Assembly: GCA_021018995.1 (NCBI GenBank)
Contig: CM037593.1
Location: forward strand, 18,194,088 to 18,258,087
DNA: 64,000 bases
Reading direction: 5' to 3'
DNA from: Chloranthus sessilifolius
Taxonomy: Eukaryota; Streptophyta; Magnoliopsida; Chloranthales; Chloranthaceae
Shown here: positions 1 to 49,462 of the stretch, one piece after another
How positions within the stretch are numbered: position 1 is the first letter of the stretch
How the letters are laid out: each line of letters opens with the position of its first letter
Program-made: the position numbers and the translations under genes
Notes under the pieces: model-generated
What the model was told of the DNA's origin: nothing
The model's database searches: none
What the model saw: the letters and a program-made list of their open reading frames with translations, nothing else

Positions 1-1326
1 AGTCTTTAGTGATCAATGCATCAAGGTCGCGTGGCTCCTTGTGCACTTTCGTTCTCACGTACCACCTATGGTACCATATAACATGTGAAACACATCACAA
101 AGGATGCTATAGAGAAGGTATAAGATCCCCCAAGAATCTTAAAGTCAAACCAAAGTCAACATAGTTTACTACAGTCGATTAATCGAACTCCAAAATCGAT
201 TAATCGAATGCGATTCGATGTCGATTTCCAAAATCGATTAATCGAAAGTCAATATCGATTAATCGAAGCAATTTCGATTAATCGAAATTCTCTTTATGAA
301 GTCCATTCTCGATTGAGCAGTTGAATTGTCATTCGATTAATCGAATCTAATTTCGATTAATCGAAATTCTTCTTCAAAGTAAATTCTTTATTCGACGATC
401 GAGCTTTCATTCGATTAATCGAATCCAATTTCGATTAATCGAAATCCTTCTTCATAAGCGGACCCTTAGTTGAATAGTCGATTTTCACAAGTTGATTAAT
501 CGATTCCAAATCGATTAATCGAAACCAAATCGATTAATCGAAATCCCATTCGATTAGTCGATTTTTCCTTAAGTTATTTCCTCCAACCCACAGGGTCCCT
601 TGGAGGTGCTTTCGGTCGATTAATCGATTCTCAAATCGATTAATCGAAATCCAAAGTCGATAAATCGAAATACAATTCGATTAATCGCAATCGAATCTCT
701 CGACTCTTCAACTTCGGCCAATTTCGATTAATGAGCAATTTCGATTAATCGAAATTGTATTCACCTTGAGCTATTCTTCCCAATCTTTTCCATACTTTTC
801 TTCTATCTTTCTAAGCCATTATCCTATGATTTAACCCACATTTCACTGCAACTTAACCCCTATAATCTATGCATCTCATTTACAAAAAATTTACCTTGGA
901 TAGACCTCAAGTTGATTTCTATCAATAGTTGGAAGGCTAGGGTATCTAGCTTTGGTTCTATCGGATCCCTTGCGTCGAATAAGCCTCTTTAATGCTTGAC
1001 TCCTCTTCCAAGCAGTTCTGATAACTCCTCTCTTACTCCTCTCTCTTTCTCTCTCTTCTTTACTTCTCTCAACCACCAAAACATGAAAGTTAGGGTTTTC
1101 AACCCTTTTTATCTTATCTCTTTTTCTCGGCGTGGAGCACATACACACTCATCAGTGTATGTAACTCTACAACTCCTCTATCTCTCCACTCTTCTACACT
1201 GATTCACACATCACTTCTGCTCATCTCCTTAAGTTCATCAATGAACTATCTCATGGTCAAACCTAAGACCAATCGGGCACGGATCCCGAGGTCATAGTTC
1301 AATGTGATTTTTTTCGGGCTATTACA
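1..1326 (-). mobile_element. Partial LTR of a Ty3/gypsy element (fossil), cut by the window edge
   Basis: Read on the minus strand, this begins TGTAATAGCCCG at 1326 and follows the same order of blocks as the LTRs at 36217 and 46547. The shared blocks are the GATCCGTGCCCGAT box, a pyrimidine/purine-rich leader with AAACCCTAGCC-like sequence, the TCGATTAATCGA array, and the block around a TATGGTACCATA palindrome. It is clearly more divergent from those two LTRs than they are from each other, so it is an older or different family member. The rest of the LTR and any internal part lie outside the window. Confidence 0.85.
170..765. repeat. Array of TCGATTAATCGA palindromes in the LTR
   Basis: More than a dozen copies of the perfect 12-bp palindrome TCGATTAATCGA, or one-base variants, lie in pairs and triplets about 19-21 bp apart. 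The array sits at the same place in the LTR as in the copies at 36.8-37.4 kb and 47.1-47.7 kb. Spacers differ between copies while the palindromes are kept. Confidence 0.9.
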
Positions 1327-8560: not shown

Positions 8561-8690
8561 GTTTGGATTTGATCAATGTTCAATAGGTTTGAGCGCCCTC
8601 GGCGTATTGGTGGTCACAGTGTTATGAATATAGCAATGATCGGAGAAAGAGTACATGGTGAAGCTTAGAGCCAGGTGGAGAATTATTATT

Positions 8691-9256
8691 TGGCTCTAAC
8701 TTGAGGTTGGCTCACTTGAGCGATTTTGGTTGTTGCTCAAGCGAGGTGGGTCGCCCAAAGGGGCAAAGTTATGGGTGTAAGTCACTCGAGCGAGTTTGGT
8801 TTTCACCCGACCGACTAGCGCACTATTCAAAGAGGTGTTTTTCAGGATTTAGTCGCTCAAACGACTTTGGTTGTCGCTTGAGTAACCGACGACGCCCATG
8901 TTACATGCAGTCTCCTCTTTTAGGCAGTTTCTCTTGGGTTAGAAGTAGTATTCGAGACTTCTATATAAAAAGAAAACTCTTGGTCGAATTGTAAGGTTTA
9001 GATATCATTGTAAAGCTTTGGATAACCTATCTATGGTCTTGAGGAGAGCTTTGGTGAGGTTTGAGCATTTTTATTTTTTTTGTGTAATCATCAATATAGT
9101 GGATTATCGCTGCCCGTGGATGTAGGCATATTGTTGCCTAACCACGTAAATATTATCTCGTGTGTTTGTGGTTGATTTTCTTTTATTTTTTGTGTTCTTA
9201 TCGATCATTCATCATGAGATAATTGGTTAGTTTGTGAGCTTCCGCGCAATAGCAAC
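8691..9256 (+). repeat. 3' LTR of the copia fossil
   Basis: Direct repeat of 4100-4656 with many scattered differences. It begins TGGCTCTAAC right after the purine tract and ends near AGCAACA. Confidence 0.85.
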
Positions 9257-9788
9257 ATCAAGGTCGCAGTTAGCTTTCCTATCAGAAAAAAGGGTATTGT
9301 TCATAGAGGACAATAATAATGAAGTTCAATTTTCCCATGAACAGATGAAAGATATAAAGTATCGTTTATTTATAACTAGGGCTCTCAATGGGCTGGGTTA
9401 AGGCTGGGCTAGGATTCAACTCGGACCGACCCTACTCGGGTCGGTTTCCCAAATTTTTTAGCCCGGCCATAAGCCTGGCTGCTTGTACTCAGCCCAAGCT
9501 CGACCCATAGGAGGCAGGGCTGGGCTTGGGCTTTTTTCCATGCATTTTTTGGGCGATTTATTTATTTTTTTTAAAACATTGTTACAAAAATTTTTAATTA
9601 ATTTTCCACAAGAGAGAGTTTGAGGGAGAGGCTTGCTTTAATTGGGACTGAAGAGGGTAGAGCGATAAAATGAAAGCTTCTGTTAGGATTTCTATTTATG
9701 AAGCTAGTACCGACTAATATTGCAACTGCATTTTTACTTAAATATCATTGATTTTAATTCATTCAATGTTTTATTCTTAGAGCATTTA
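9257..9788. other. Intergenic; GGGCTGGG-rich repeat fragment at 9390-9540
   Basis: No gene is visible. 9390-9540 is rich in GGCTGGGC, GGGTCGG and AGCCCGGCC-type words. That composition is often seen at the ends of plant hAT-like elements and resembles the copy at 32.16-33.1 kb. No matching second terminus was found close by. Confidence 0.4.
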
Positions 9789-9796
9789 GTTAAAAC

Positions 9797-10767
9797 CATA
9801 GTGACGAATTTCAGCAAATTAGGGGTCAAACGAAAATTTCAAAGAAATTTCAGGTCTTTTCAATAATTTCGACAATTTCGGTATTTTTCGACGAAATTTC
9901 AAATTTTCGGTGCATTTTAGAATTTCAATATTTTTTTTCAAAGTTTTTTTTTTTCTTTTTATTTTTTAAATAAATTAGTAATTTAGTGGTAAGCGGGGTG
10001 GAAATCTCGCTCACCAGGCACCACACGACTGCATATGCATTTGAAAGAGAATCTTAATATAGCTGGCTAGAGTGGGGGAGATTTCCCCCTTCACCGATGT
10101 GGGACTAAAGAGAGTTGCTTTCTTTAGGTGAATGGGTACCATCCACTTCACCAGCTGCTTTCTCACCCCACCTTATTCAGCGGGCAATCATTGACTGCTC
10201 TTGAATAAGATGTTTGAGGTCGTTTTTCGTCCTCATCCTCTACACAATGGATCTATGGGTCGTGGGGGAACCATCAGACGGTCGATTTTTTATTACATGT
10301 GACACAGATCTCAAAAGTGACCCTAAAATCATATGACCCCCATTACGGTCAAGTATGATTTAGCGTCACTTTTTGAGATGTGTACCATGTGTAATAAAAA
10401 ATCGACCATCTGATAGTACGCTCACGATCCATATATGCATTGTGCAAAAGATGGGGCGAAAAATGACCTCCACCATCTTATCAAAGGCCGTCAATGCATG
10501 CTTGGTGGAAGAGGTGGGGTGAAAAAGCAGCCTTTGGGTGAGCATAATTGTACCCTTTGTTAATTTGTCTTCTGTAGTTCTATGCTTAAGCTCACTGTCA
10601 GTGCTTGGCCACTTGGATCAATTGCTAATTTTTTTTTAAAATATTAAATATATTTTTTATATTTTTTTAATCCCCGAAACTTTCCCAAAATTTTTCTGAA
10701 ATGTATCAAAATTAATTCGAAATGTACCCCCACCGAAAAATTATCGAAAACAAAATTTGTCGCTATG
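9797..10767. mobile_element. hAT-like MITE with 8-bp target duplication, carrying nested insertions
   Basis: The left end CATAGTGACGAATTT and right end AAATTTGTCGCTATG are inverted repeats. They are flanked by an exact 8-bp duplication GTTAAAAC at 9789-9796 and 10768-10775, which fits hAT elements. The arms consist of many AATTTCG and GAAATTTC words. Shorter relatives with the same ends are at about 32495-32845 and 56447-56828. Those lack the foldback block at 10.1-10.56 kb, so that block is a later insertion. Confidence 0.8.
10110..10555. mobile_element. Foldback MITE nested in the hAT-like element
   Basis: The region is largely self-complementary. GTCGATTTTTTATTACATG near 10282 pairs with CATGTGTAATAAAAAATCGAC near 10390. 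CACCAGCTGCTTTCTCACCCC on the left pairs with GGGGTGAAAAAGCAGCCTTTGG on the right. No coding capacity. Copies of the same foldback theme occur at 12.96-13.40 and 13.91-14.31 kb. Confidence 0.7.
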
Positions 10768-12954: not shown

Positions 12955-13395
12955 ACCAGTTTTTTAACCCAACGATGGTTTTTTTAGTACCTTTAAATCC
13001 ACCCACCGAATCTTTGAGTTCACCCACGCTGAAACACATTGACTGTGTTGAATCAGATGATGGAGATCGTTAATCATCCCAATCTTTCACGCGATGGATC
13101 TTGAGATCATGGGCGTACCATCAGACAATTAGTGTTTTATTTCACGTGACACACATCTCAGAAAAGTGGCCTTAACATCACATGCACACTTAAAATTGAT
13201 TTTAAGGTCACTTTTTTGAATATGTACCACATGAAACAAGTAATTGACCGTCTTATGGAACGTCCATGATCTCAATATCCATCATTTGAAAGATTAATAC
13301 GATAAATAATCTGGATCATTTGATTCAATGGAGACCATGCATTTCACTCAAAAAATTTGTGGGTGGATGTAAAGGTAATTTTATTTTTTTTTAAT
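12955..13395. mobile_element. Foldback MITE
   Basis: Self-complementary block. The left half holds GATCTTGAGATCATGGGCGT, CATCAGACAATTA and CACGTGACACACATCTCAG. The right half holds the approximate reverse complements, ending in GTGGGTGGATGTAAAGGTA. It belongs to the same theme as the elements at 10.1 and 13.9 kb. No coding capacity. Confidence 0.65.
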
Positions 13396-13904
13396 TTTTA
13401 ATTTTTAATTATTTTTATTTTTATTTTTTTTATGAGGCATTAAAGCTACTTTCTAGAGGAGTTGTCATTCGGTTTCTAATGCAAGCACCATTGGCCATAC
13501 TTGGGCCAATCACCTTCAACTTAGTCAAGCCTCAGGCGTGAAGAAGTGGACAAAATTTTTATAAACATACAAAGCAGTGAAAATACGCTTAACATTCCAC
13601 TGATTTGGCCTAAAAATATCGTAGCAAACATGCTCTATCATATGATATATTCAACGCAATCAATGGTTGAATTGAAGGATTGCCTGTTACTGCATTGAGT
13701 CATATGATTGAGATCATGCTTCACACTATTTTTTTTATAATAAAAATTTTTAGATAATGTCCTTCAAATCATATGATTTAAATGGCGTTTCACATGACAC
13801 ATGTTCTCAAAATACAATATCTATCTTTTGAATTGTATGCAAGGGTCAACATTATGCGTGCAAGAAATGGCTCCCTAAAACAACTAAGAGTAGCTCAATT
13901 TGCA

Positions 13905-14310
13905 CTCACGGGTTTTCTGAAAGCACCTACATGTGCAACACCTTAATATCCATTGATTGGGTCGGATTAGAGACTCATTGATTGGATTCGATCTTCCACA
14001 TAATAGATCTTGAGACCATGTCACACCTATCAAACGGTCAGTTTTGAATTCCACATGTCACATATCCCCAAAATATGCATCTTGTGTGCAATGGCCTAGA
14101 TCACGCTCAAACGTGATTTTAGTTAGGGTCATATTTTTGGAATCTGTGATATGTGGAATAAAAATTGACCATCTGATAGGTGTGACATAGTATCAAGATC
14201 CATTACGTGGAAGATCGGGGTGGAACACAATCTCTATCGTCTGATCCGATCCAATCAATGAGTTTTAAGGGATTTTCAATATAAGTGCTTTCAGAGAATG
14301 CGTGAGTGGG
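13905..14310. mobile_element. Foldback MITE
   Basis: Arms pair across a centre near 14100: TTTCTGAAAGCACCTA on the left with the AAGTGCTTTCAGAGAA region on the right, and GATCTTGAGACCATGTCACA with TGTGACATAGTATCAAGATC. It is the third copy of this foldback family in 4 kb, and lies about 390 bp beyond the 3' end of the F-box gene. Confidence 0.7.
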
Positions 14311-17924: not shown

Positions 17925-18724
17925 AGTATTGTGACAGCCCGATTTTCCTGTTTCCACAAAATCCATTACAATATATATATTTTTTCTTCATTAAACCAGA
18001 TTCAATAGGAAAATCGAATCGTCAGGTCACACTTCACAATCCGAATACAGAATTTTATTTGGTACCTCCACATATACGTGAGGAAATCGAAGCAGATATC
18101 ATACATGTGCGGAATTTAAAATCTAGATATCCCAAAGCAGATATAAAGCCTTCTACTTTATACACAACATCTAACACATATAATAAAAGGGCCCAAAGGA
18201 AAATCACCGGTGATGGCCGACCATCACCTAACCAGTGGCCTACAAATATACATCCAAATTTATCTTTTTAATCATCGAATTTAGTCATAGGACATACCAA
18301 GTCCAAATATCTAAAAGTCCATAAAATCTACCATACAAACTCAAAACACGCCAAATCCAAGTCCTTACCTAGGGTAGAATTTCTCAAATGAAAGATCTTA
18401 TACCTTTCTCCAGTTCCAGATCCTGATCAACACCTGTGCCTGTGACGTATAGTCGGGGAGTGAGCTTCATCCAAGCTCAATAGGAAATAACTAATGCTAA
18501 TAGAAACTAAAAGACGAACTTGATACATAAATAGAAATACATGATCAAAGCAGGAATTTCTTTAACTAAAATCAAACTTATTCTTTCATGAATGCAAGTG
18601 ATCAGGTCATTCAACATAATGCATGTACAATCAAAAAAGTGTATTAGGAGCATGGGAAACAAACAAAGCGAGTACAATATCAGAGCGTATAGCAAGGAAT
18701 CAAAACAAAGTCGAACATCAAGTT

Positions 18725-19165
18725 GTTAAGCCCCTGTACTACGTTAACATGGTCACTTGAACCAAGACATCGACCCCTTGAGCTATGTTAACAGGGTCAC
18801 TCAACTCAAGAAGTCAAGCCCCTGAGTTACGTTAACAGGGTCACTTGGGCCGAGACGGATTGTCGAACCCCTGAGCTAGTTAACAGGGTCACTTGAGCCA
18901 AGACATTGAGCCCCTGAGCTATGTTCACAGGGTCACTCAACTCAAGAAGTCAAGCCCCTAAGCTATATTAACAGGGTCACTTGGGCCGAGACGGATTGCC
19001 AAGCCCCTGAGCTAGTTAACAGGGTCACTTGCGCCGGATTGCCAAGCCTCTGAGCAAGTTAGCAAGGTCACTTAAACCGAAACGTCAAGCCCCTGAGCTA
19101 AGTTAACAGGGTCACTTGAACTGAGACCATCAAACCCCTGAGCTAAGTTAACAGGGTCACTCGAT
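18725..19165. repeat. Tandem repeats, left arm of the inverted repeat
   Basis: About ten units of roughly 40-50 bp built on CAAGCCCCTGAGCTA, GTTAACAGGGTCACTTG and a GAGAC spacer. Units vary in length and spacer. The complementary series is at 19865-20215. Confidence 0.9.
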
Positions 19166-19860: not shown

Positions 19861-19864
19861 GTGA

Positions 19865-20215
19865 CCCTGCTAACTTGCTTTAGGGCTTAGCAATCCAGCT
19901 CAAGTGACCCTGTTAACTAGCTCAGGGGCTTGGCAATCTGTCTTGGCCCAAGTGACCCTGTTAACGTAGCTCAAGGGCTTGACTTCTTGAGTTGAGTGAC
20001 CCTATTAGCATAACTCAAGGGCTCGATGTCTTGGCTCAAGTGACCCTGTCAACTAGCTCGGGGGCTTGGCAATCTGTCTCGGCCCAAGTGACCCTGTTAA
20101 CGTAACTCAGGGGCTTGGCTTCTTGAGTTGAGTGACCTTGTTAATATAGCTCAAGGGCTCGATGTATTTATTCAAGTGACATGTTAACGTAGCTCAGAGG
20201 CTTGAAAACTTGATG
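19865..20215. repeat. Tandem repeats, right arm of the inverted repeat
   Basis: Units of GTGACCCTGTTAAC, TAGCTCAGGGGCTTG and a CTTGGCCCAA or TTGAGTTGA spacer. This is the reverse complement of the units at 18725-19165. Confidence 0.9.
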
Positions 20216-21009
20216 TTCGACTTTATTTTGATTTCTTGTTATACGCTTTGGTATTGTACTCGCTTTGTTTGTTTCCTATGCTCCTAATACACTCGTTCGA
20301 TTATACATGCATTATGTTGAATGACCTTATCACTTGCATTCATGAAAGAATAAGTTTCATTTTAGTTAAAAAAATTCCTGCGTTGATCATGTATTTCTAT
20401 TTATGTATCAAGTTCGTCGTTTAGATTCTATTAGCATTGGTTATTCCCTATTGAGCTTGGATGAAGCTCACTTCCCTACTAGACGTCAGAGGCACAAGTG
20501 TCAATCGGGATCTGGAACTGGAGAAAGATATAGGATCTTTCGTTTGGGGAATTCTACCCTAGGTGAGGACATAGATTTGGCGTGTTTTGAGTTCGTGCAA
20601 AGCTTGTACACTTAAACCAAGTATTACTCATATATCGAAAGGTCCTACTAAGTCCCAACATTGTCGACCCAATTAGTCAGCCCAACCTAGTTGGCCTAAA
20701 TAGTCGGCCCAAATAGTCCAACTAGTGTTAATCCTTAATAAGCTTTCATTTTGTTCCAAAATTTTGCCTCTAAGTTGTACACACGCACAACATGTCATCT
20801 CACGCAGGCGCACTTAGTCAGTATGTGCGGTTCAAAATTTAGGGTTGTTACAAGTATGATCTAGGAGTATGATCTAGAGGAGGCACCACACCCAGATAAA
20901 TATTGACTTCTATATTCTTCAATTGGGTACCCTACCCTCTCATAACCAACACGATCACTTGGAATAATCCTGATGAAGCATTGACCAAGTCAAACACAAG
21001 TGAAATAAA

Positions 21010-23710: not shown

Positions 23711-23965
23711 TAGTCCGCTACCTTACCGCTATCTTAGCGTAGCGAAGCACTACTATTAGATAACGGAACGCTACCTTGCCGTTATCTTAGCGCAGCGTTC
23801 CGCTACATTACCGCTATCTTAGCGTAGCGGAACGCTACCCTAAGATAGTGGAGCGCTACGATAAGATAGTGTTCCGCTATATAAAGGTAAGGTAGCGGAA
23901 CGCTATGCTAAGATAGCGACAAGGCAGCGTTCCGCTATCTTAGGTAGCGGTAAGGTAGCGGATTG
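23711..23965. repeat. Left subterminal array of the MULE
   Basis: More than ten copies, in both orientations, of CGCTATCTTAG, GGTAAGGTAGCGG and GGAACGCTA words, giving nested short palindromes. The same vocabulary forms the right array at 30971-31176 and a small cluster at 25480-25530. Confidence 0.88.
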
Positions 23966-30970: not shown

Positions 30971-31176
30971 GTAGCGGGTAACTATCTTAAGATAGCGACG
31001 CTGACATAAGGTAGTGGGTCGCTATCCTAAGGTAGCGCCGCTAACATAATTTAACGGTTCGCTACCTTATGTTAGTGCCACTATCTTAAGATAGCTATCC
31101 GCTACCTTAAGATAGCAGCGCTAACTTAAGGTAGGGATACGCTACCTTATGTCAGCGGCGCGCTACCATAAGGTAG
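30971..31176. repeat. Right subterminal array of the MULE
   Basis: Repeated GCTATCCTAAGGTAGCG, GCTACCTTATGTTAG and CTATCTTAAGATAG words, the same vocabulary as at 23711-23965. Palindromic pairs flank short spacers of about 10 bp. Confidence 0.88.
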
Positions 31177-34284: not shown

Positions 34285-34819
34285 ATCCATGCGTTTGGCT
34301 TGAAAAGATCCATGCCATATGTATATGGAAGCTTACCTTTCATATTGCTTAGTTTGAAAAGCGGAACATAACTCATAGCAGCGGTTCACCGCTACGCACG
34401 CGTACGTGCGTGTGTGTGAAGTGTGAATAGCGCAATTGACGCTTTTGGAAGGTGCACCAAAAGTTATAAATAGAGGCTACAGGAGGGATTCTTATTAACT
34501 TATAATTCTGAATCCTGCATCTGAGTCCTTAGAATTCGTGTGCCAATCAGAGTATTCTGTGTTTTCGTTTCGTTAGGTCGCACATTATAGTGCAACGTAG
34601 CGTGTGACAGATCGGTGCTTCACCAAGGCTTCATTGTATCCTGAAGGAGAATTTGCCGTTCTCCCGTTGTAAGTGGATTTTCAAAAGAAAACTTAATCCT
34701 AATGATACTATAAATAAGTTTAAGGCTAGACTTATTACTAAAGGTTTTAGACAGAAGAAGCATATTTCTCATTGGTATTGAACTTAAACATTTCGTAAGA
34801 GACATACCCTTTGCCTACA

Positions 34820-36040: not shown

Positions 36041-36216
36041 TAGTTAATGACTGTTGAATACCAAAAGTTGTAATTGCTCGAGTATGATCGTTGGAACCTT
36101 GCAACTGTTAATCGGATCGAACAGGGCCCTCAATTACAAGCAATCACAGAGACAACTGCCCCTGAAAAAGTACTCCGAGAGTTATAAATAGAGGCTACAG
36201 GAGGGATTTTGATTAA

Positions 36217-38857
36217 TGTAATAGCCCGAAAAATCACGCTAAAACTATGACCTCGGGATCCGTGCCCGATCGGTCATAGGTTTGACCAAATGGAAGTCCA
36301 ATAGTTAGCATGAGGTGTGATGAACGGATGAGATGTGATAAACTTAATGTCGATGTGGTGTGTGTTGTAAATGTGAAGTCGCATATACCTACCGCGGTAT
36401 ATGTGCTCAACACACAAGTGAGAAAAGAGGATAAAAAGGGTTTAATAACCCTAGAGGTGTATTTTGGTTGTTGAAGGAGAGTAAAGAAGAGAGAGAGAAA
36501 GAGAAAAGTAAGAGAGGAGTTATTGCAATTGATTGGAAGAAGGATTCAAGTATTAAAGAGGCTGATTCAACGCAAGAGATCCGTTAGAACAAAAGCTGGA
36601 AACCCTAGCCTTCCAACTATCTGATTGAAATCAACTTTAGATCTATTCAAGGTAAGATTTTTGTAAATAAAATGCATAGATTATAGGGGTTAAGTTGTAG
36701 TTGAATGTGGGTCAAAATCATAGGATAATGGCTTAGAAAATAGGGGAAAAAGTATGGAAAAAGATTGGGAAGAACAACTCGAAAGGGGCTGAATCTGACA
36801 ATTTCGATTAATCGAAATTGGGTTTCGATTAATCGAAATTGGCCAGGAAGTTGAAAGGTCAGAGGACCCCGATTTCGATTAATCGAATTTGATTTCGATT
36901 AATCGACTTTGGATTTCGATTGATCGATTTGGGGATCGATTAATCGACTGAGAACCTCCAGTGGACCCCAGGGGTTGGAGGAAATGACTTGAGGAAAAAT
37001 CGACTAATCGAAATGGGATTTCGATTAATCGATTTTAGTTTTCGATTAATCGATTTGGGATCGATTAATCAACTTGTGAAACTCGACTGTTCGAACTGAG
37101 AGTCTACTTTGCGAAAAGAAGAATTTCGATTAATCGAAATTGGATTCGATTAATCGAATGAAAACTCGACTATTCGAACAGTGAAATTACTTTGCGAAAA
37201 GAGGAATTTCGATTAATCGAAATTGGATTCGATTAATCGAATGAAAACTCGACTGTTCGAATAGTAAAATTACTTTGCGAAAAGGAGAATTTCGATTAAT
37301 CGAAATTGCTTCGATTAATCGATATTGACCTTCGATTAATCGATTTTGGAAATCGATTAATCGAATCAGATTCGATTGATCGATTTTGGAGTTCGATTAA
37401 TCGACTGACATGAATTATGTTGACTTTTGGGTTTGACTTTAAGATTCTTGGAGGGTCTTATACCTTCTTTATTGAATCCTTTGTGATGTGTTTTACCTGT
37501 TATATGGTACCATAGGTGGTACGTGTGGACTAGTGCACAAGGAGCCACGTGGGACCTTGATGCAATGATCGAATAAAGACTTGAGGTAGGGAACACCTTG
37601 AGCATGTACCTTATTTTACAAGAGCATGTATGTAGTGATATAGAATTCAATTCAATTGTTATTTCTTAAGAATTTGTGGAAAGTGTGTGTGTGTGACATT
37701 CATAAGAGTAATCATAATGAGCCATCCCCAGGGGATGAAGAAGTAAAGAGATAAGAGCATCGGTGTGATGAGTAAATGGATACATCCAGGATGTATCCAA
37801 GGATTGAATCATGTTTGATAGGGCCTAAGCGATATAAGATAGCACAATTACGGTGAATAACTATATATAGCACCGATATTTTGTTATTTGAGGTTTGATA
37901 GGGTACCCACCGGCGTGGCGGGATATCCACGCGACACGGCGGGATATCCGTGGCCAAATCTGGGCGGCGAAACCGTAGGCCAGTGCGGAGGCTTATCCGT
38001 ACATAGTAAGCACACCCCAGGGGTGTTGATTGAGACAAGTGAAACCCCGCCACCAATCCCCAGGGGAAAGGGGCTTGGGTACTATTTGTATTCCCAGGGA
38101 ATACGGTTAAAACTGTCTATATAGATGACGATGATGGGTATCTCATCGGGGCTCGATGCTATATTGCTCGGGGATTACTTAAGTTGAAAGTTTAAGTTTT
38201 GCTTTAGGCCTTCTCAGCATCATTCATGAGTAAATGAAAATATAAGAAATCAACAGTAAAACGAAATGCTTTTTAACTGTTCATTAACAACTGCATAGAT
38301 ACATCATGCATGGCATATCATGGAATATATGTGAGTTATAATTTATATGTTCAACCGTGTTCGTTCCCTATTGAGCTAGGATGTAGCTCACCCTATAGAC
38401 TATACGTCGCAGGTCCACTACTAGCACGAGGCTTGAGACGCCGATCCCATGAGTCGGACCTTCTTGCGGTAGGTGAAGAGTTGGAGCCACCTCGGAGGAC
38501 TTCTTCTAGAGGACTCCGTTGTGCCACTTTGAGGATTTTGGAGAGAGTTTTTATGCGGCTTGGTATGTCAAGCCTTGATTTATTTAAACCATGTATATAT
38601 GTATATAGATGGGATTATTCTTTTAGGCGAACCATCGTGATGATTGCTATCATCGATGGTTGAATCGTTCTCCATTCATGTAGAGGCATGAGGGTAGAAA
38701 GTCTTTTGGAGTTAATTAATATAGATTCAAATTCCATAATTTCGTTTATTATTTATTACAATACTTGATACACCAATGTTATCCGTGCTTAGCTAAGGGG
38801 CACGGTCAAGATAAATCGTCTTGATGGCACGGGTTTCGGGTGCAATCCGGTCATCAC
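36217..38857 (+). repeat. 5' LTR of the gypsy element
   Basis: Begins TGTAATAGCCCG. Order of parts: a GATCCGTGCCCGATCGG box; a purine-rich leader with AAACCCTAGCC; a splice-donor-like CAAGGTAAG near 36650; the palindrome array at 36800-37405; a TATGGTACCATA block; a cluster of CCCCAGGGG-type palindromes at 37720-38100; and a CTATATAGATG box near 38115. Over most of its length it differs from the 3' LTR at only a few sites. Confidence 0.9.
36800..37405. repeat. Phased TCGATTAATCGA palindrome array (5' LTR)
   Basis: About sixteen exact copies of the 12-bp perfect palindrome TCGATTAATCGA plus one-base variants (TCGACTAATCGA, TCGATTGATCGA). Neighbours within a group are 19-21 bp apart, start to start. 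Groups are separated by longer spacers such as GAAAACTCGACTGTTCGA. Confidence 0.93.
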
Positions 38858-38860
38858 GAT

Positions 38861-38872
38861 TGGTATCAAAGC
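38861..38872 (+). promoter_or_regulatory. tRNA-Met-type primer-binding site
   Basis: TGGTATCAAAGC lies four bases after the 5' LTR end and matches the initiator-tRNA-Met complement TGGTATCAGAGC except for one base. Confidence 0.85.
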
Positions 38873-38949
38873 TATTTTCTTTTAGCAATTCTGACAAGGG
38901 TTCTTTCGTCAGAACATAGGGGCTTCTGCTAACGAAACTTTAGTTTCAA

Positions 38950-40229
38950 ATGCAGCCGCAAATGTCGTCTAGAGGAAGAGGCCGACCAAGGGGAGGCCAG
39001 CAGAGGAGTCTACGTAGTGGAGATGGTTACATCTCTCCTACTAATAGAGTGCCTTTAGGGGGTACTGAGGCCCCAGGGGGCAGTAGTAGTAGACAGCGTG
39101 ATGAAGAAGATCGAGATCATCAGGATCAAGATCTAAGAGAACAAGAAAGATTGAGAGAAAGACAAGAAGATGCGAGAAGAGGCGACAAAGGATGATGCAC
39201 ACTATGGAGACTATGGCTGCCATGGCACAACAAGCCGCATCCTTTGCTCATCATGCATCAAGAAATGACCACCTACACCACATGGGACTGCGTTTGCCTG
39301 TGCCCACATCATTTACAGAGTTTAGGAGGATGAGACCTCCTTCATTTTCTGGGCGGATACAATGGCCACGAGAACTGATGGAGATGGAGAAAGTCTTTAG
39401 CGTGCTAACTTGCACGGAAGATGAGAATGTAAGATGGGCAGCTTACATGTTGGATGGGGAGGCTGGGCCTTGGTGGAAGTCCGTGATACGGACTCGGGCT
39501 CAGGAGACCCCAGAGTTGCCTTGGACTTGGGAGGAGTTTGTTGAGGAGTTCAACAAACAATATTTTCCAGAAGTGGTGAGGAACCAATTAGAGATACAAT
39601 TTTTACAATTGGTGCAAGGGAGAATGACAGTGAGAGAATACGGGGTAGAGTTTCTACGACTTGCCCGTTTTGCTCCGGACTACGTCGCTACTGAGATGAT
39701 GAAGTCCAAGAGGTTTCAGCAAGGTTTGAAGCCTGAGGTTAGGGGAGGCGTAGCTCCATTTCAACTGAGGACCTATGAAGAGGTCATGAGTAAAGCACTG
39801 GTAGTTGAAGAGGAGAACACAAATAGATATCGACAGAGGGAACAACAGAGAGGAGGAAATGAACAAGGAAGGTCGGGGCACTATGAACCGGTGAACAAAA
39901 AGCCGAGGTTCATGGGCCAGAATCAGAGACCACAGTTCCAAGGGGGTTTCGGAAGACCGGCGCAACAACAACAACAACAACACCAACAGAGGTTTCCATT
40001 GCTTGCGTCGGGGAGACCTATTCGCTATGAGAGCCCTGCCATGCCTACTGGCGCCACTATCACACAGGGTTCTCGTCGTTTCTTCACCTCGGGAGACTTT
40101 GAAAGTGTGGCAAGCCTCATAGGACGGTGGGTAGTAGATCGGGAACTAGGGGCTGTTTCCGATGTGGCAAAGGTGGGCCACTTGATCAAGGATTGCCAGA
40201 CGGATAAGAGAAAGAGCGGTTTCGATTGA
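38950..40229 (+). pseudogene. gypsy gag region (fossil)
   Basis: An Arg/Gly-rich start (SSRGRGRPRGGQQ) is followed by a retrotransposon gag domain with RPPSFSGRI, MLDGEAGPWWKSV and FNKQYFPEVV, a Gln-rich linker and a worn zinc-knuckle region near 40.16 kb. It encodes the capsid/nucleocapsid part. The region is not a single open frame. Confidence 0.85.
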
Positions 40230-40489
40230 CACCATGACCAATTCAAGTAAGGAAACCGATCGTCGGGGAGAGCCTGTATGCGATCCTTTGCCGTCATCAA
40301 GGTGAGATTTTTATTTTAATTAAAGAAAATTTTCATTTCATTAAGATTTTAGATAGAGAAGAGCATGCGTTAGAAATTATATAGATTTTTTTTCTCAATA
40401 CAAAAAGCTGTATATGAATTCAGAGTGTAAATTGATGTGTAAATTATCGTATGTATGTATGTATACTATAGGTACTCTAAATATATATG

Positions 40490-43400
40490 AAAAAGGATGT
40501 TTCGGTGGATATGACGCTCGAGTGTTGATAGACCCCGGGTCTACCCACTCATTCGTTACTCCACGTTTCGCTAAGAAGATGAAGATTGTTCCAGAGACGT
40601 TGGATTTCGTCCTATCTGTGTCTATTCCGACTGGAGAGTTAGTAGACACGGAGTTAGCTTGCAAATCCATCCTAGTAGTAGTTCGAGACTTAGAGGTGCA
40701 TGAACTAGAAGCAAAGTTGATACTGTTAGACATGTAAGGGTTTGATGTGATCCTTGGCATGGACTGGTTGGCGCAGCATTGTGCAACCGTCGATTGCAAG
40801 AACAAGGTAGTTATTTTCAGACCCAACACAAGAAGATCATTTCGGTTTCAAGGAGTGAGGTCATCATCATGTACCTTGATCTCGGTGATGAGGGCGAAAA
40901 TGATGGAAATGGTTGCGATGGATACTTAGCTTTCTTAAAGGAGGACAAGGAAGAAAAGAAACGTCATTTACGAGATAACGGTTATGCGAGACTTACGATG
41001 TGTTTCGGAGGAATTACAGGTTACCTCCAGAAAGAGAAGTAGAATTCGCCATTGACTTAGCACTAGGAACGGAGCCTATTTCAAAAGCACCTTATAGAAT
41101 GGCTCTCGCTGAGTTAAAGGAGTTGAAGGAACAACTACAAGAGCTTATGTACAAGGGGTTTGTTAGACCGAGCGTGTCTCCATGGGGAGCACCGGTCTTG
41201 TTTGTCAAGAAGAAGGATGGGTCAATGCGGTTATGCATTGACTATCGACAATTGAACAAACTCACTGTGAAGAACCGCTACCCTTTTCCTAGAATAGACG
41301 ATCTATTCGACCAACTGCAAGGAGCAAGGTATTTTTCCAAGATCGACCTGAGATCTGGGTATCATCAGTTGCGAGTCAAAGCTAAGGACATTCAGAAGAC
41401 AGCTTTCCGGACGCGGTATGGACACTATGAATTCCTTGTGATGCCGTTTGGATTAACGAATGCTCCGGCATCGTTTATGGATCTGATGAACCGAGTGTTT
41501 AAACCACACTTGGACTCCTGCGTAGTAGTGTTTGTTGATGATATACTGATATACTCCAAATCCAAGACGGAACACGAAGAACATTTGAGGATTGCTCTAC
41601 AGACGCTACGTGAACACCAATTGTACGCCAAACTCAGCAAGTGTGAGTTTCGGTTGGAAGAAGTTAGCTTTTTGGGACACGTTGTCTCAAAGCATGGTGT
41701 CACTGTAGATCCAGCAAAGATAGAAGCAGTAGTTAAATGGGAGCAGCTAAAGACAGTGACCGATGTCCGAAGTTTTCTGGGCTTAGCAGGCTATTATCGA
41801 CGTTTCGTCGAGGGGTTTTCAAAGATATCGGGACCTCTCACAAAGCTGACACGAAAAGATTCAAGGTTTGAGTGGAGTGAGGCATGCGAGAAGAGTTTTC
41901 AAGAACTCAAAACGAGACTCACTTCGGCTCCAGTATTAGCGATTCCTTCAGTGGAGGATCGCCGTGTCTTGACCGTCATACAATGGCCTTGGTTGTGTGC
42001 TCAACCAACACAAGAAGGTGATAGCTTACGGATCAAGACAGCTGAAGGAACACGAGAAAAATTACCCGACTCATGACTTGGAACTAGCAGCAGTCATTTT
42101 TGCGCTGAAGATTTGGAGACATTACTTGTATGGTGAGACGTTTGAAATTTTCACCGATCATAAGAGCCTCCGATACTTGTTTACACAGAAAGAGCTCAAC
42201 ATGAGACAGCGCAGATGGATGGAATTCCTCAAGGATTATGATTGCTCCATACAATACCATCCTGGCAAGGCGAATGTAGTAGCCGATGCATTGAGTCGGA
42301 AAGGTTCAGCTCAGTTAGCTTCTTTGATTTTGGGTATGCACCGATGGAAATTATTGGAAGACCTGGCACTCTATGATGCGAACATTGAGTCAAAGGACCT
42401 TTGGATCCTTTTGGCTAACATATCAGTAAAGCCAGTGATATTCGAGCATATCCACGATCTACAGATGAAAGATCCGACATTAACAAAGATTCATCAAGAC
42501 GTGAGTGAAGGCATCGGGTCGGACTTCTCAGTAAAAGAAGATGGTTCCTTGTTGTTTAAAGGCCGTCTATGCATTCCGGACAACGCCGATCTAAGACGAA
42601 CGATTCTTGATGAGGCCCATAAGTCAAATTATGCTATCCACCCTGGTAGCACCAAAATGTACCAAGATTTGAAAAAGAACTCTTTGGTGGAAGGTGAAAC
42701 AAGGCGTGGCGAGTATGTGTCACGATGTTTGACTTGTCGACAAGTGAAGGTTGATCATAGGCATCTGTTTGGACTATTGCAACCTTTACCAATCCCGAAT
42801 GGAAGTGGGAATCGATCTCAATGGATTTCATTGTTGGATTACCCCGTCTTTGCCAAGAGACACAATGCCATTTGGGTCGTTGAACGATTGACCAAATCGG
42901 CGCACTTTTTGGTACAATACTCATTATCTGCGGGAAGGTAGCGGACTTATACATGAAGGAGATGTAAGATTACATGGTATTCCAAGACATAGTTCGGTCG
43001 TGATCCACTATATACGTCCAAGTTTTGGAAGAAATTTCAAGAAGGAATGGGAACACGACTAGACTTTAGTTCAGCTTTCCATCCTCAAACTGATGGGCAG
43101 ACAGAGCGAGTGAACCAAGTAATAGAAGACATGCTCAGGGCATGCATGCTTGACATGCAAGGATACTGGGATGAGTATCTACCGATGCTCAAGTTCGCAT
43201 ACAACAACAGTTTCCAAACGAGCATTGGCATGGCACCGTACGAAGCTCTGTATGGACGACGATGCAAATCACCCCTCAATTGGGAGGAAACGGGTGAGAA
43301 ATTTGTGTTAGGACCAAAACTACTTGAAGATAACGCTACCGTCGTTCGAATTATCAGAGAAAGGTTGAAGACAACACGAGGTAAAGCAGAAAAATTGACT

Positions 43401-43790
43401 AGTGTTGACTATAAAGTGGGCGAGCATGTGTTTGTGAAGGTGTCACCTATGAAAGGTGTAATGAGATTTGGCAAGAGAGGGAAGTTAAGTCCACGTTATG
43501 TTGGACCATTCGAAATTTTGGGACGCGTAGGTGAAGTTGCATATCGCATTGGTTTACCACCACTATTTGATCGAGTGCATAATGTTTTCCACATATCGAT
43601 GCTCAGAAAGTACGTGAATGATCCGTCTCATGTGTTAGGAAAGCAACCTATAGAGATGTGTGAGGACATGAGCATGATAGAGGAACTAGTGGAAATCTTG
43701 GATCGAAAGGAACAAGTACTGCGCACTAAAGTGATTTCCTTAGTGCTAGTTCGGTGGAACAATTATCCTAAAGAAGAGGCTACTTGAGAA
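40490..43790 (+). pseudogene. gypsy pol region: protease, RT, RNase H, integrase, chromodomain-like tail (fossil)
   Basis: Domain zones: protease with LIDPGSTHSFVTPRF near 40.53 kb and ILGMDWL near 40.75 kb; reverse transcriptase 41.05-41.70 kb with [10 protein letters not shown] and [11 protein letters not shown]; RNase H 42.0-42.3 kb with [11 protein letters not shown] and VVADALSRK; integrase from about 42.6 kb with an H2C2 zinc finger, then HPQTDGQTERVNQ near 43.09 kb; and a C-terminal zone ending in a chromodomain-like stretch near 43.7 kb (ILDRKEQVLRTK). The chromodomain and pol type indicate a chromovirus. Broken at several points. Confidence 0.88.
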
Positions 43791-43984
43791 CGAGAGGCCG
43801 ATGTGAAAGAACAATATCCAGCCTTGTTTCCAACGACGTGAGAATTCAATGTAAATCACAAACATGTTTGTGAAATCTCCACTATGCTTATAATTCAATA
43901 GAAATCTTGATCCAATCTGTCATAAATTGTCAAAAATAGTAAAAGAAATAAAGAGATTAAAATTTTGTAGAAATTGGGCAAAAC

Positions 43985-44560
43985 CGATTAATCGAATTTC
44001 AAATCGATTAATCGATTTGGAATTTCGATTAATCGATTTTGTTCGATTAGTCGACTGGCATGTGCCAGTGACTAGAAATTGAAAGGAGAGTTAGAATATA
44101 CATGAAGACACATTTCGATTGATCGAATTGGAATCTCGACTAATCGATTTTGAAAATTCGATTAATCGAATTATAATTCGACTAATCGATTTACTTTAGG
44201 GACTTAGAAGAAATTGGAATTTCGATTAATCGAAATGGATTTCGATTAATCGAATAATTTAAGAAATTCTGGAAAAATTAGAAGTTATAGCCCGATTTCG
44301 ATTAATCGAAACTAAATTCGATTAATCGATTTTGGAATTTCGATTAATCGAAATGGATTTTGATTAATCGACTGGCTCGCGCCAGTGAGCTCAAAATTTT
44401 AAAATTTTAAACAGACACGATTTCGATTAATCGAAATGGTTTCGACTAATCGAATTTGACTTTCGATTAATCGATTTGGGAAATCGATTAATCGATTTTA
44501 CGCGGCTTAACTTAGTTTGAAATCTCGATTAATCGATTCTGGATTTCGATTAATCGAGCC
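43985..44560. repeat. Second TCGATTAATCGA array, internal to the gypsy element
   Basis: Over a dozen copies of the same palindrome and close variants, again 18-21 bp apart in groups. They lie between the end of pol and the extra coding region. The spacers differ from those in the LTR array, so it is not a plain recent LTR duplication. Confidence 0.92.
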
Positions 44561-44792
44561 GAGGCCTATATATTAGAAATTAGGGATTTTCTTCCCCATT
44601 CGAATCATTTGCGCTTTGAGTTTTCGAGCGCCTTTTTCTCCTTCTTCTCCGGCCATCCATCCGTGCTAGGGTTTTGGGGTTCTTCGACGATTTCAGACCA
44701 AGATCGCCTATTTTGGATCGAAACTCCACGGTAAACCCTAGATTTATACTTTCCTTTTTCGTTTGAAATAGATAAACCCTAGTTTTCTCAAA
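44561..44792 (+). promoter_or_regulatory. Leader-like region ahead of the extra gypsy ORF
   Basis: CCTATATATTAG near 44569 resembles a TATA box. It is followed by a pyrimidine-rich stretch with two AAACCCTAG words, a donor-like CACGGTAAACC near 44730, and the context CTCAAAATGCCGCC at the first ATG. Taken together this looks like a plant promoter and leader lying directly after the palindrome array. Inferred from sequence only. Confidence 0.4.
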
Positions 44793-46040
44793 ATGCCGCC
44801 TAAAACTCCTCTATCTTCAAGGAAGGCGACTTCCAAGCTACCGGTTAGGCGTAAGAACGCCGCACCACCACCACCTACCCCATCGCCGGTGAGGACTCCT
44901 TCACCGTCGGAATCGGAGACCACCTCCGGTTCGGCCGGCGATCTCTGTGTGAGTCTTCCAAATCCACCCCCATGCCACCACCACCCACCAATGTCGAACA
45001 ACCAAATGAATGGTAGGCGGCAAAGACCTTTGAGGTCGAATACAACATCGACCCTACCCTTTTCACCAATCCCGATTTACCGGGCGAGACCCAATGGGCT
45101 CGAAATTACCTCACCAACGCCGGACTCGGCAACCTTCTAAAACCAATCCGGGGTTCTTACTACCCTAGATTGGTTAGGCTCTTTTACCAAGGGCTAACCG
45201 ATGGCCCTACCGATGATTGCATAATCACCAAGATTGAGGGTCGTCTCTATACGATCACTCGTCGCCACATCCACGAGGTACTCGAGTGTTACCTCGATTT
45301 CACCCCGGAGACCACTCTTTTCCCACCTTTTGAGGAGGAACCCCGTTTTGAGGAGGTCATGACCCGTATGACCAACGGGAAAAAGGGGTCGGGATCCTCC
45401 ATCAAGAGGGTTGACCTTCCACCTTACATGTGGATGCTTGATTCTATAATCAAGTGTAACCTCTACCGTCGCCCGACCGAGCGTGGACAAAGTGCAACAT
45501 GCACTTCTGTGACCTTCTGTGGCGGTGGTTGACATACGATGGTCATCCTAGAGGGGATGAAATACATCAAGGGGAAGTTGATGAAGGGCAACATGAGGCC
45601 CAAGGAAAAGATGCCCTATGGTCGTCTCATATCGAGCATGTTGGAGTGCTACTCCGCCGAGCCATCCTACACCATCTCACCTCACGAGGTGAGGGCTACG
45701 GATCGCGTGAAGACATTTACAAAGTCTTCATGGACCCGTAGCTACAACCTTTTAAAGCGGACCCTACCAGCTCCGGGTCCCGCTCCGCCCAGCAGTGCGT
45801 GGCAGATGCCGCCACCACCCCACCACCTCGGCCAGACCCACGTGGGTGGGGCACACCCTATTCCCATCAGAGCCATCCGTGGAGAGGTTCCCTCCACACC
45901 AGCCTCACCAGGCACCACACTGCACACTCCGCGCCCGACACCCACCTCATCCCTCTGCCGGCAGCCTCCACCCGGTCCTACCATCGAGGGGCGTGTTGGC
46001 TCGCATGGAGGCCAACAATGAGAGGATGAAGCCAGGATAG
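44793..46040 (+). pseudogene. Extra sense coding region between pol and 3' LTR; plant transposon-protein-like domain (fossil)
   Basis: Begins MPPKTPLSSRKATSKLPVRR, followed by a Pro/Ser-rich segment. A globular part with YYPRLVRLFYQGLTDGPTDD, RRHIHEVLECYLDFTPETT and MPYGRLISSMLECYS resembles the putative plant transposon protein domain (Transposase_32, PF20167), recalled by motif and not by search. A Pro/His-rich tail follows. It lies in sense, ahead of the purine tract, so it belongs to the element. Codon use is GC-rich compared with pol. It is broken. Its function is not known; captured or accessory ORFs at this site occur in some plant LTR elements. Confidence 0.65.
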
Positions 46041-46529
46041 ACTTCCTCCTATTCCACACACTCACATCTACCACCGACTACCGCCGCTACCTCGCCCAGG
46101 AGGAGGAGTGGACGGCCGACGCACCGCCTTCCATCGAGGACCCGTCTTCCATCCCACCACAGACGCGACTCCTTCCACATCCACATCTGCTCACGCTGAT
46201 CGCTTCCTGACAGAGCAGCTCAAGCAGACACACCACCACGGTCGCACCGTCCGGCTGGCGAGGGGACTGTTTGAGTCTTGTATTTATTTTTGAGTTCTGA
46301 TTGTATACCTGTAAATTGTATTATACGCCAATTTATCTGGCATTGTAAATTTCCAAAGTTTAAATATAAATCAAACTTTTTGGTCGAATTGTTTCCTTTA
46401 TTAATGTACTTCCATACTTGTATTGTAACTGTCGAATGCGTCTAAGTAATATTGACCACCTCACCTGAGAGTGAGGGGGGGGGAGTGCCCCAGACAGACA
46501 AACCTTGGGTTATTTTCGAGGATGAAAAT

Positions 46530-46546
46530 TCCCAAGGTGGGGAGGA
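46530..46546 (+). promoter_or_regulatory. Polypurine tract
   Basis: AAGGTGGGGAGGA immediately before the 3' LTR, the usual plus-strand primer site of LTR elements. Confidence 0.85.
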
Positions 46547-49191
46547 TGTAATAGCCCGAAAAATCACGCTAAAACTATGACCTCGGGATCCGTGCCCGAT
46601 CGGTCATAGGTTTGACCAAACGGAAGTCCAATAGTTAGCATGAGGTGTGATGAACGGATGAGATGTGATAAACTTAATGTCGATGTGGTGTGTGTTGTAA
46701 ATGTGAAGTCGCATATACCTACCGCGATATATGTGCTCAACACACAAGTGAGAAAAGAGGATAAAAAGGGTTTAATAACCCTAGAGGTGTATTTTGGTTG
46801 TTGAAGGAGAGTAAAGAAGAGAGAGAGAAAGAGAAAAGTAAGAGAGGAGTTATTGCAATTGATTGGAAGAAGGATTCAAGTATTAAAGAGGCTGATTCAA
46901 CGCAAGGGATTCGTTAGAACAAAAGCTGGAAACCCTAGCCTTCCAACTATCTGATTGAAATCAACTTTAGATCTATTCAAGGTAAGATTTTTGTAAATAA
47001 AATGCATAGATTATAGGGGTTAAGTTGTAGTTGAATGTGGGTCAAAATCATAGGATAATGGCTTAGAAAATAGGGGAAAAAGTATGGAAAAAGATTGGGA
47101 AGAACAACTCGAAGAAATGAATCTGACAATTTCGATTAATCGAAATTGGGTTTCGATTAATCGAAATTGGCCAGGAAGTTGAAAGGTCATAGGACCCCGA
47201 TTTCGATTAATCGAATTTGATTTCGATTAATCGACTTTGGATTTCGATTGATCGATTTGGGGATCGATTAATCGACTGGGAACCTCCAGTGGACCCCAGG
47301 GGTTGGAGGAAATGACTTGAGGAAAAATCGACTAATCGAAATGAGATTTCGATTAATCGATTTTAGTTTTCGATTAATCGATTTGGGATCGATTAATCAA
47401 CTTGAAACTCATTTATTGACGAGAGTCTACTTTGCGAAAAGAAGAATTTCGATTAATCGAAATTGGATTCGATTAATCGAATGAAAACTCATTTATTGAC
47501 GGTGAAATTACTTTGAAAGAGGAATTTCGATTAATCGAAATTGGATTCGATTAATCGAATGAAAACTCGACTGTTCGAATAGTGAAATTACTTTGCGAAA
47601 AGGAGAATTTCGATTAATCGAAATTGCTTCGATTAATCGATATTGACCTTCGATTAATCGATTTTGGAAATCGATTAATCGAATCAGATTCGATTGATCG
47701 ATTTTGGAGTTCGATTAATCGACTGACATGAATTATGTTGACTTTTGGGTTTGACTTTAAGATTCTTGGAGGGTCTTATACCTTCTTTATTGCATCCTTT
47801 GTGATGTGTTTTACCTGTTATATGGTACCATAGGTGGTACGTGTGGACTAGTGCACAAGGAGCCACGTGGGACCTTGATGCAATGATCGAATGAAGACTT
47901 GAGGTAGGGAACACCTTGAACATGTACCTTATTTTATAAGAGCATGTATGTAGTGATATAGAATTCAATTCAATTGTTATTTCTTAAGAATTTGTGGAAA
48001 GTGTGTGTGTGTGACATTCATAAGAGTAATCATAATGAGCCATCCCCAGGGGATGAAGAAGTAAAGAGATAAGAGCATCAGGTGTGATGCAAGTAAATGG
48101 ATACATCCCAGGGATGTATCCAAGGATTGAATCATGTTTGATAGGGCCTAACTGATATAAGATAGCACAATTACACGGTGAATAACTATATGTAAGGCAC
48201 CGATATTTTTGTTATTTGAGGTTTGATAGGGTACCCCACCGACGTGGCGGGATATCCACGACTGACACGGCAGGATATCCGTGACCGTCTGGCGGAAACC
48301 GTAGGCTGCAGTGAGGCTTATCCAGACATAGTAAGCACACCCGGGGTTGAGACAAGTGAAACCCGCCACCAATCCCGAGGAAAGGGGCTTGGGTACTATT
48401 TGTATTCCCAGGGAATACGGTTAAAACTGTCTATATAGATGACGATGATGGGTATCTCATCGGGGCTCGATGCTATATTGCTCGGGGATTACTTAAGTTG
48501 AAAGTTTAAGTTTTGCTTTAGGCCTTCTCAGCATCATTCATGAGTAAATGAAAATATAAGAAATCAACAGTAAAACGAAATGCTTTTTAACTGTTCATTA
48601 ACAACTGCATAGATACATCATGCATGGCATATCATGGAATATATGTGAGTTATAATTTATATGTTCAACCGTGTTCGTTCCCTATTGAGCTAGGATGTAG
48701 TTCACCCTATAGACTATACGTCGCAGGTCCACTACTAGCAGCTGTCGAGGCTTCAGGAGACGCTGATCCCGACGAGTCGGACCTTGCGGCCGGTGAAGAG
48801 TTGGAGCCACCTCCAGAGGACTTCTTCTAGAGGACTCCGTTGTGCCACTTTGAGGGATTTTGAAGAGAGTTTTTGTACGGCTTGGTATGTCAAGCCTTGA
48901 TTCTGTTTAAACCATGTATATATGTATATAGATGGGATTATTCTTTTGGGGCGAACCATCCGTGATGATTGCTATCATCGATGGTTCGAATCGGTTCTCC
49001 ATTCATGTAGAGGCATGAGGGTAGAATTGTCTTTTGGAGAGTTAATTAATATAGATTCAAATTCCGCAATTTCGTTTATTATTTTATTACAATGCTTGAT
49101 ACACCAGTGTTCCGTGCTTAGCTAAGGGGCACGGTCAAGACGATCGTGCTGATGGCACGGGTTTCGGGGTGCCGAAATCCGGGCTGTCACA
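46547..49191 (+). repeat. 3' LTR of the gypsy element
   Basis: 2645 bp, TGTAATAGCCCG to GGGCTGTCACA, colinear with the 5' LTR including the palindrome array at 47125-47730. Long sections are almost identical to the 5' LTR, but the palindromic CG-rich part at about 48060-48400 and a few array spacers differ by many small length changes. Confidence 0.92.
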
Positions 49192-49462
49192 ATTAACTTG
49201 CAATTCCGAATCCTACATTTGAGTCCTTAGAATTCATGTGCCAACTAGAGCATTATGTATTTTCGTTTCGTTGGGTCGCATACTACAGTACAACGTAATA
49301 TGTGACAGATCAGCGTTTCATCGCAATTTTATTGTATCCTAGAGGCGAATTTATCATTATTCCATTATATATAGGAGGCAAATATTGTCTTAAAGACAAT
49401 AATTTATTCGTGTCTTGAAGTAATTTTTGATCTATTTTCCGTCAATTTTTATGCACCCCACT

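Follow-up and report, generated by a model that had tools for sequence, protein, structure and literature searches.

This study focused on why a perfect 12-bp palindrome should recur throughout part of the long terminal repeat (LTR) of a plant retrotransposon, and on whether the resulting array is a set of sites read by a protein or a tandem repeat without function. The palindrome, TCGATTAATCGA, was noticed in a 64-kb stretch of the Chloranthus sessilifolius genome (hereafter, the window), and no report of the motif was found in the literature searched; of 258 papers containing related strings, the 20 listed appeared from their titles to be unrelated. The palindromes proved to be under selection. 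On balance we consider it probable that the arrays are operators for a dimeric protein at the LTR promoter and at an internal promoter, the protein being more likely host-encoded. The operator-like system appears to be real and selected, and a mechanism of the kind set out below is likely. Such a system bears on the question of how plant retrotransposons capture, or escape from, host control.

The host element and its LTR array

The array lies in an element that extends from about 36217 to 49191 and is bounded, as read from the sequence, by an ATTAA target-site duplication (36212-36216 and 49192-49196). The 5' LTR (36217..38856, forward strand) was 95.0% identical by self-BLAST to 46546-49182, and the 3' LTR was placed at 46547..49191 on the same strand, the ends of both having been read from the sequence. 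These coordinates bear out an initial sequence-only reading, which had put the array inside a gypsy LTR. The reading frames of gag and pol (39192..43787, forward strand) are broken in the window copy. Pfam matches among the window ORFs were Retrotrans_gag, RVT_1, RNase H, Integrase_H2C2 and SH3_Tf2-1, and a relative, L041, carried a Chromo domain (PF00385, 30.6 bits, cut-off 25.1). Because gag, reverse transcriptase (RT), RNase H and integrase are present in this order in the window and a chromodomain in the relative, the element is a Ty3/gypsy chromovirus, presumably of the Tekay/Del group. Direct repeats, 80% identical, flank it on both sides (34494-34654 and 49192-49352), which suggests that the chromovirus is nested in another repeated element.

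A putative LTR promoter is marked by a TATA-like box (36430..36439, forward strand), which reads TAAAAAGG in the window copy and TAAAAGG or TATAAGG in relatives, and which was present near LTR position 213 in 11/11 aligned LTR rows. A predicted splice donor, AG/GTAAGA (36650..36659, forward strand), follows, and its AGGTRA form was found in the same 11/11 rows; these rows come from the window and from the first-listed site clusters of contig 1, and several are pairs or near-pairs. A GA-rich leader was also seen in the aligned rows, and in the window copy the array starts about 150 bp past the donor-like site. Beyond the LTR, a primer binding site was recognized from the sequence (38861..38872, forward strand; similar in L039 and L041), which we take to be of the initiator-Met type. 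Directly after it comes a candidate splice acceptor, TCTTTTAG (38880..38885, forward strand), seen in three of seven aligned rows, those of the window, L039 and L041. Given these predicted signals for transcription start and splicing, the first intron is the probable location of the LTR array. The array follows the TATA-like box instead of preceding it, which counts against reading it as an operator.

The array itself (36804..37404, no strand assigned) holds 16 exact copies of TCGATTAATCGA together with variants, in line with the original count of about sixteen in 600 bp. At up to two mismatches, 21 slots were recognized in this copy, spaced 21, 50, 20, 21, 20, 64, 21, 21, 19, 65, 20, 20, 43, 20, 63, 19, 21, 21, 19 and 21 bp apart; that is, groups at 19-21 bp are parted by gaps of 43, 50 and 63-65 bp. 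The window as a whole contains 59 exact sites in four clusters, as against a mean of 0.02 in shuffled sequences. Three of the clusters were absent from the sequence-only reading: that of the 3' LTR (47132..47722, no strand assigned, 16 exact sites), an internal one (44004-44557), and one of 14 exact sites (175-752) in an inverted and truncated LTR (1..1326, reverse strand) that belongs to a related subfamily and matched the main LTR at about 82% identity in self-BLAST.

Across the genome (2,168,743,587 bases) TCGATTAATCGA occurred exactly 241,617 times, compared with 55 times for the reversed control, and seven 10-kb stretches (L052-L058; six chosen blindly, the other adjoining the window) held no site at one mismatch or fewer. 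Within a 30-copy family, 441 of 624 slots were exact. Two slot variants recurred there, TCGACTAATCGA (n=27) and TCGATTAATCAA (n=43), at fixed slots, and were met in other subfamilies too; both look largely inherited. With these two set aside, CpG transitions made up 36 of the 65 remaining changes in slots of this family with one or two mismatches.

The internal array and the accessory gene

The internal array occupies 43985..44557 (no strand assigned), with 13 exact sites at 44004-44557 and 20 slots at up to two mismatches, and its spacing pattern differs from that of the LTR array. The TATA box of a predicted internal promoter (44567..44574, forward strand) stands 9 bp past the last palindrome. 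TATATA was found 5-9 bp downstream of the last internal site in 10/10 copies, and at exactly 9 bp in 8/10, but eight of these ten arrays were chosen from the best 40 of 4097 candidates, a selection that favours conserved promoters, and that of L041, with an accessory region about 72% identical, was included solely for holding contig-1 sites. Another relative, L039, is without the pol end and without the internal array. Neither the internal promoter array nor the location of the LTR array downstream of a TATA-like box and donor-like site had been remarked upon in the sequence-only reading.

The internal promoter would serve an accessory gene (44793..46021, forward strand), which is weakly PF20167-like and broken in the window into ORFs at 44793-45140, 45170-45532 and 45539-46021. 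In L039 the gene (8293-9705) is open across 470 residues. For the 229 codons compared between L039 and L041 its dN/dS was 0.158, synonymous positions having already changed a great deal (pS 0.56), and the gene is, from these two copies, constrained at the protein level. Compared with PF20167 the protein scored 29.4 bits, below the cut-off of 45. No DNA-binding domain was recognized in it by Pfam and PDB comparison, and a PDB search with the L039 protein gave no sequence relative. A structure predicted for window ORF 45170-45532 from its sequence alone was uninformative (mean pLDDT 41.5).

A wider site grammar and a second Ty3 element

The site grammar is broader than TCGATTAATCGA and can be written TCGAT-NN-ATCGA. 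In loci chosen for the TA form, a two-base centre between TCGAT and ATCGA was counted 65, 97 and 21 times, and centres of 0, 1, 3 or 4 bases were not seen. Such an arrangement, with half-sites inverted around a centre of constant length, is one that a dimeric protein would read. Genome-wide, 75,208 places carried a site with a centre starting in a base other than T (TCGATVNATCGA), compared with 719 for controls, and a survey of the families at these places covered L045-L048. Two of them, L045 and L046 on contig 1, carry gag, RT and rve by Pfam. Their RT is 29% identical to that of the chromovirus, and comparison of both loci with the chromovirus parts gave no match of at least 100 bases. Judged by its integrase, we take this second element to be Athila-like.

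In the LTR of L045/L046, TCGATACATCGA is spaced 21 bp from TCGATTAATCGA, and TCGATGCATCGA is spaced 22 bp from another TCGATTAATCGA; the leader holds four further sites at spacings of 21, 19 and 19 bp. Two pairs at 21 bp are also present in L047, a relative that has suffered deletion. The sites are located at 1358-1488 (LTR) and 2939-3009 (leader) of L045 and at 2089-2201 of L047, and their centres are AC, TA, GC, TG and CA in L045/L046 and CG in L047. Because other families differ in the two central bases, GATTAATC, which had been named as the core of the palindrome, is not invariant. Recognition by a homeodomain, for which an invariant ATTA/TAAT core would be expected, had been suggested by the look of that core and is at this stage a conjecture. 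Among 84,980 prokaryotic genomes (about 257 Gb), 23 stretches contained a general-motif pair at 19-22 bp, and no exact TCGATTAATCGA pair occurred in the viral contigs scanned.

A host factor is favoured as the reader of the sites because two Ty3 clades share their grammar, and the original proposal of such a factor is supported to this extent. An alternative, which we hold to be rather unlikely, is that the PF20167-like accessory protein is itself the reader of the sites and either activates both promoters or relieves their repression, in the manner of VANC or Tas. Here the array adjoins the TATA box of the very gene that encodes the protein, a gene that is constrained between the two copies compared. 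VANC motifs also form tandem repeats in introns and upstream regions, according to the accessible part of PMC5735166, and sunflower Athila has a PF20167-like protein, according to that of PMC11728184. A related protein could then serve the second clade, and a shared accessory-protein family may be the common reader of both. Against this stand the sub-threshold PF20167 score and the lack of a recognized DNA-binding domain or PDB relative noted above, as well as L045/L046, which are without such an ORF in the short parts examined, a copy that may be decayed.

That the palindromes act in RNA, with neighbours pairing as hairpins or dimerising the genomic RNA for packaging or processing, is very unlikely. 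Adjacent self-complementary 12-mers are able to pair, and transcription from the TATA-like box at 36430, if it occurs, would include the LTR array. However, the internal array ends 9 bp upstream of a TATA box, which is a DNA-level position, the AC, TG and CA centres of L045/L046 are not self-complementary, and it is the letters that have been kept, not pairing alone.

Spacing of the sites

Exact TCGATTAATCGA pairs at 19-21 bp numbered 104,328 genome-wide, with none for the control, which, together with the slot spacings of the window LTR, agrees with the within-group spacing first described; the outcome that would have spoken against it, a lack of any such peak, was not seen. Pairs with a centre not starting in T were at 21 bp in 6,443 cases and at 20 bp in 1,398. 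Among the matches listed, adjacent distances were 21 bp (14 times), 22 bp (four times), 18 bp and 4 bp (once each), and none was 19, 20 or 23-37 bp. This sample took the first 100 listed places with a non-T centre and 100 listed TA places on contig 1, with clusters of at least four TA sites removed, and used one strand, so that the centres TG, TC and TT are missing from it. A preference for a spacing of two helical turns is supported by these data. A strict helical rule allowing any whole number of turns, by which the sites would in general face the same side of the helix, was not supported: two-turn spacing dominates, general-motif pairs at 31-32 bp, or three turns, are very scarce, numbering 283 genome-wide (control 0), and the gaps of 50 and 55-56 bp between groups are out of phase, not being whole helical turns.

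Nucleosome positioning, through TTAA centres recurring every two turns with CG about half a turn off, would match the 19-21 bp period and the placement of AT and CG within the palindrome. We nevertheless consider it highly improbable, since elsewhere the central two bases vary (GC, AC, TG, CA) while TCGAT and ATCGA are kept, and the 31-32 bp spacing is so rare.

Divergence of palindromes and spacers

The LTRs of an element are identical at insertion, so differences between them arose later. Nine LTR pairs, judged to be pairs by position and likeness, were compared at non-CpG sites, and palindromes (38/1365) and spacers (61/2211) had changed at equal rates (OR 1.01, p=1). L043/L044 was excluded from this pool, the intervening DNA being unlike one element; by itself it gave 5/146 in palindromes and 17/269 in spacers. 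Between subfamilies the result was quite different: eight representatives, in 28 non-independent comparisons, differed at 195/3663 palindrome positions versus 1113/5068 spacer positions, with flank differences of 1793/8582 (left) and 1294/8552 (right), or 15-21%. Four pairs that used each representative once, and which were chosen as independent without a tree, gave an OR of 0.25 (p=2.4e-6) against the LTR pairs, and the distant pair L033-L051 alone gave p=1.3e-4. The ratio of the palindrome/spacer contrast ranged from 0.23 to 0.56 across nine settings of alignment score and slot definition. Under the strictest slot definition palindromes were slower even in the LTR pairs (1.7% versus 3.3%), an effect that is partly definitional there.

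CpG positions, counted separately, were conserved between subfamilies as well, having changed at 21/247 in palindromes versus 41/123 elsewhere in the four subfamily pairs; a smaller contrast was seen in the LTR pairs, at 37/620 in palindromes versus 26/241 outside (OR 0.52, p=0.02). The internal arrays gave a largely concordant, though uneven, picture: palindromes and spacers differed at 3/151 versus 58/250 (L041-L066) and 2/163 versus 61/324 (L059-L066), and in three other comparisons at 11/163, 11/166 and 21/178 versus 78/288, 62/252 and 54/220, respectively, the one with 21/178 including the decayed window copy. All rates refer to aligned columns, unaligned stretches being excluded, and these pairwise counts replaced a column-wise count in which the left flank, as the search query, is biased low and the array alignment may favour palindromes.

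Selection on the sites is shown by these comparisons. Because subfamilies hold their palindromes and LTR pairs do not, the sites are selected in propagating lineages and free to decay once inserted. The description of palindromes as fixed amid changing spacers thus holds between subfamilies, where the rate contrast expected by the sequence-only reading was found, and fails after insertion, where equal rates are as expected of dead copies. Likewise upheld, by this contrast and by the 19-21 bp peak, is the view of the array as a platform of the protein-binding type and not a random satellite. A contrast of this kind, between LTR pairs (after death) and subfamilies (while alive), tells selection apart from mutation and is usable for any LTR family.

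Gap runs arising after insertion were about fourfold commoner in arrays (80/4298 aligned columns) than in flanks (31/6632) of the nine LTR pairs, while between subfamilies they amounted to 351/10555 columns in arrays and 713/17774 in flanks. This suggests that array length is likewise held in lineages, the gap counts being rough at high divergence. A functionless repeat spread by slippage or unequal exchange would suit the post-insertion gaps, but it is scarcely credible, as slippage would copy the spacers too, whereas spacers drift and sites are held, array gap runs are no commoner than flank ones between subfamilies, and the site recurs in a second clade as well as in an internal array with other spacings; the rate contrast between subfamilies contradicts a neutral satellite in all nine settings.

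Proposed mechanism

Under the operator reading, a dimeric DNA-binding protein would read TCGAT-NN-ATCGA, two inverted TCGAT half-sites with two bases between them, and would prefer sites grouped in runs or pairs at a distance of about 21 bp. One array lies past the LTR promoter, within the predicted first intron, and the other immediately before the TATA box of the putative internal promoter of the accessory gene. Binding would most likely raise or protect transcription from both promoters, through activation or anti-silencing, and copies with intact arrays would thereby multiply; after insertion, the sites of a copy decay at the spacer rate. We infer that the reader protein is more likely a host factor from the identical site grammar of an unrelated Ty3 clade. 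If so, hundreds of thousands of its sites reside in mobile DNA, and could titrate the factor or rewire genes near insertions.

A bolder reading, put forward tentatively and with less than even confidence, is that the chromovirus and the Athila-like element converged on, or exchanged, a single operator code of inverted TCGAT half-sites with a two-base centre, about 21 bp apart, one dimeric factor reading both and, in the chromovirus, driving the LTR promoter and the internal accessory-gene promoter together. Were this true, the genome would hold more than 300,000 sites for one factor, mostly in retrotransposons.

Relationship to known systems

Palindromes in the LTRs of maize Sireviruses are reportedly dealt with in one paper. 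The closest known kind of array is formed by the palindromic repeated-motif (RM) boxes of Sireviruses, which are Ty1/copia elements. As given in the accessible sections of PMC2829016, these consist of a short palindrome repeated 8-32 times in each element, for the most part within the upper half of the LTR and ahead of its TATA box, with a CGG-CCG core except in Tnd-1 (ACAATCGATTGT) and extra copies before the ENV-like gene where this is present. The same sections term palindromic RMs Sirevirus-specific (Bousios et al. 2010, PMC2829016) and propose a regulatory role for them, an internal promoter being suggested and not conclusively found. The chromovirus resembles Sireviruses in having a high-copy palindrome in the LTR and again before a post-pol gene. 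It differs in that the host is a Ty3/gypsy chromovirus by domain content, the motif is TCGAT-NN-ATCGA, the TATA-like box precedes the LTR array, and the internal array abuts a TATA box. Repeated LTR palindromes had therefore been noted already, and a selection test on them was not found in those sections of PMC2829016; the test, and the sharing of the site with a second clade, go beyond that report.

The VANC and Tas systems are, by analogy, best regarded as functional likenesses and not as families that contain the chromovirus arrays. In VANDAL elements a single short motif is clustered throughout the transposon, both in introns and in upstream regions, and a sequence-specific protein reads the motif and permits element expression; in the portion of PMC5735166 available, VANDALs are DNA transposons, unlike the chromovirus, and the VANC21 motif, YAGTATTAY, is non-palindromic and largely confined to its own family. 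In foamy viruses one regulator, Tas, serves both the LTR and an internal promoter (PMC8670036, in part), a likeness to the chromovirus in layout only. Retand-like elements share an accessory ORF and repeats between pol and the 3' LTR, but their ORFs are mainly antisense with a TRP28 domain, unlike the chromovirus accessory gene, and no shared LTR/internal operator is described for Retand in the accessible text of PMC11963269.

Other features of the window

Inverted arms of about 737 bases, 90% identical, are present at 18335-19071 and 19861-20596, each with arrays of a 44-base tandem repeat. Five self-complementary stretches of 180-400 bases (69-78%), at 10154-10531, 12988-13377, 13903-14308, 23758-23940 and 30982-31176, resemble old hairpin-type small transposons.
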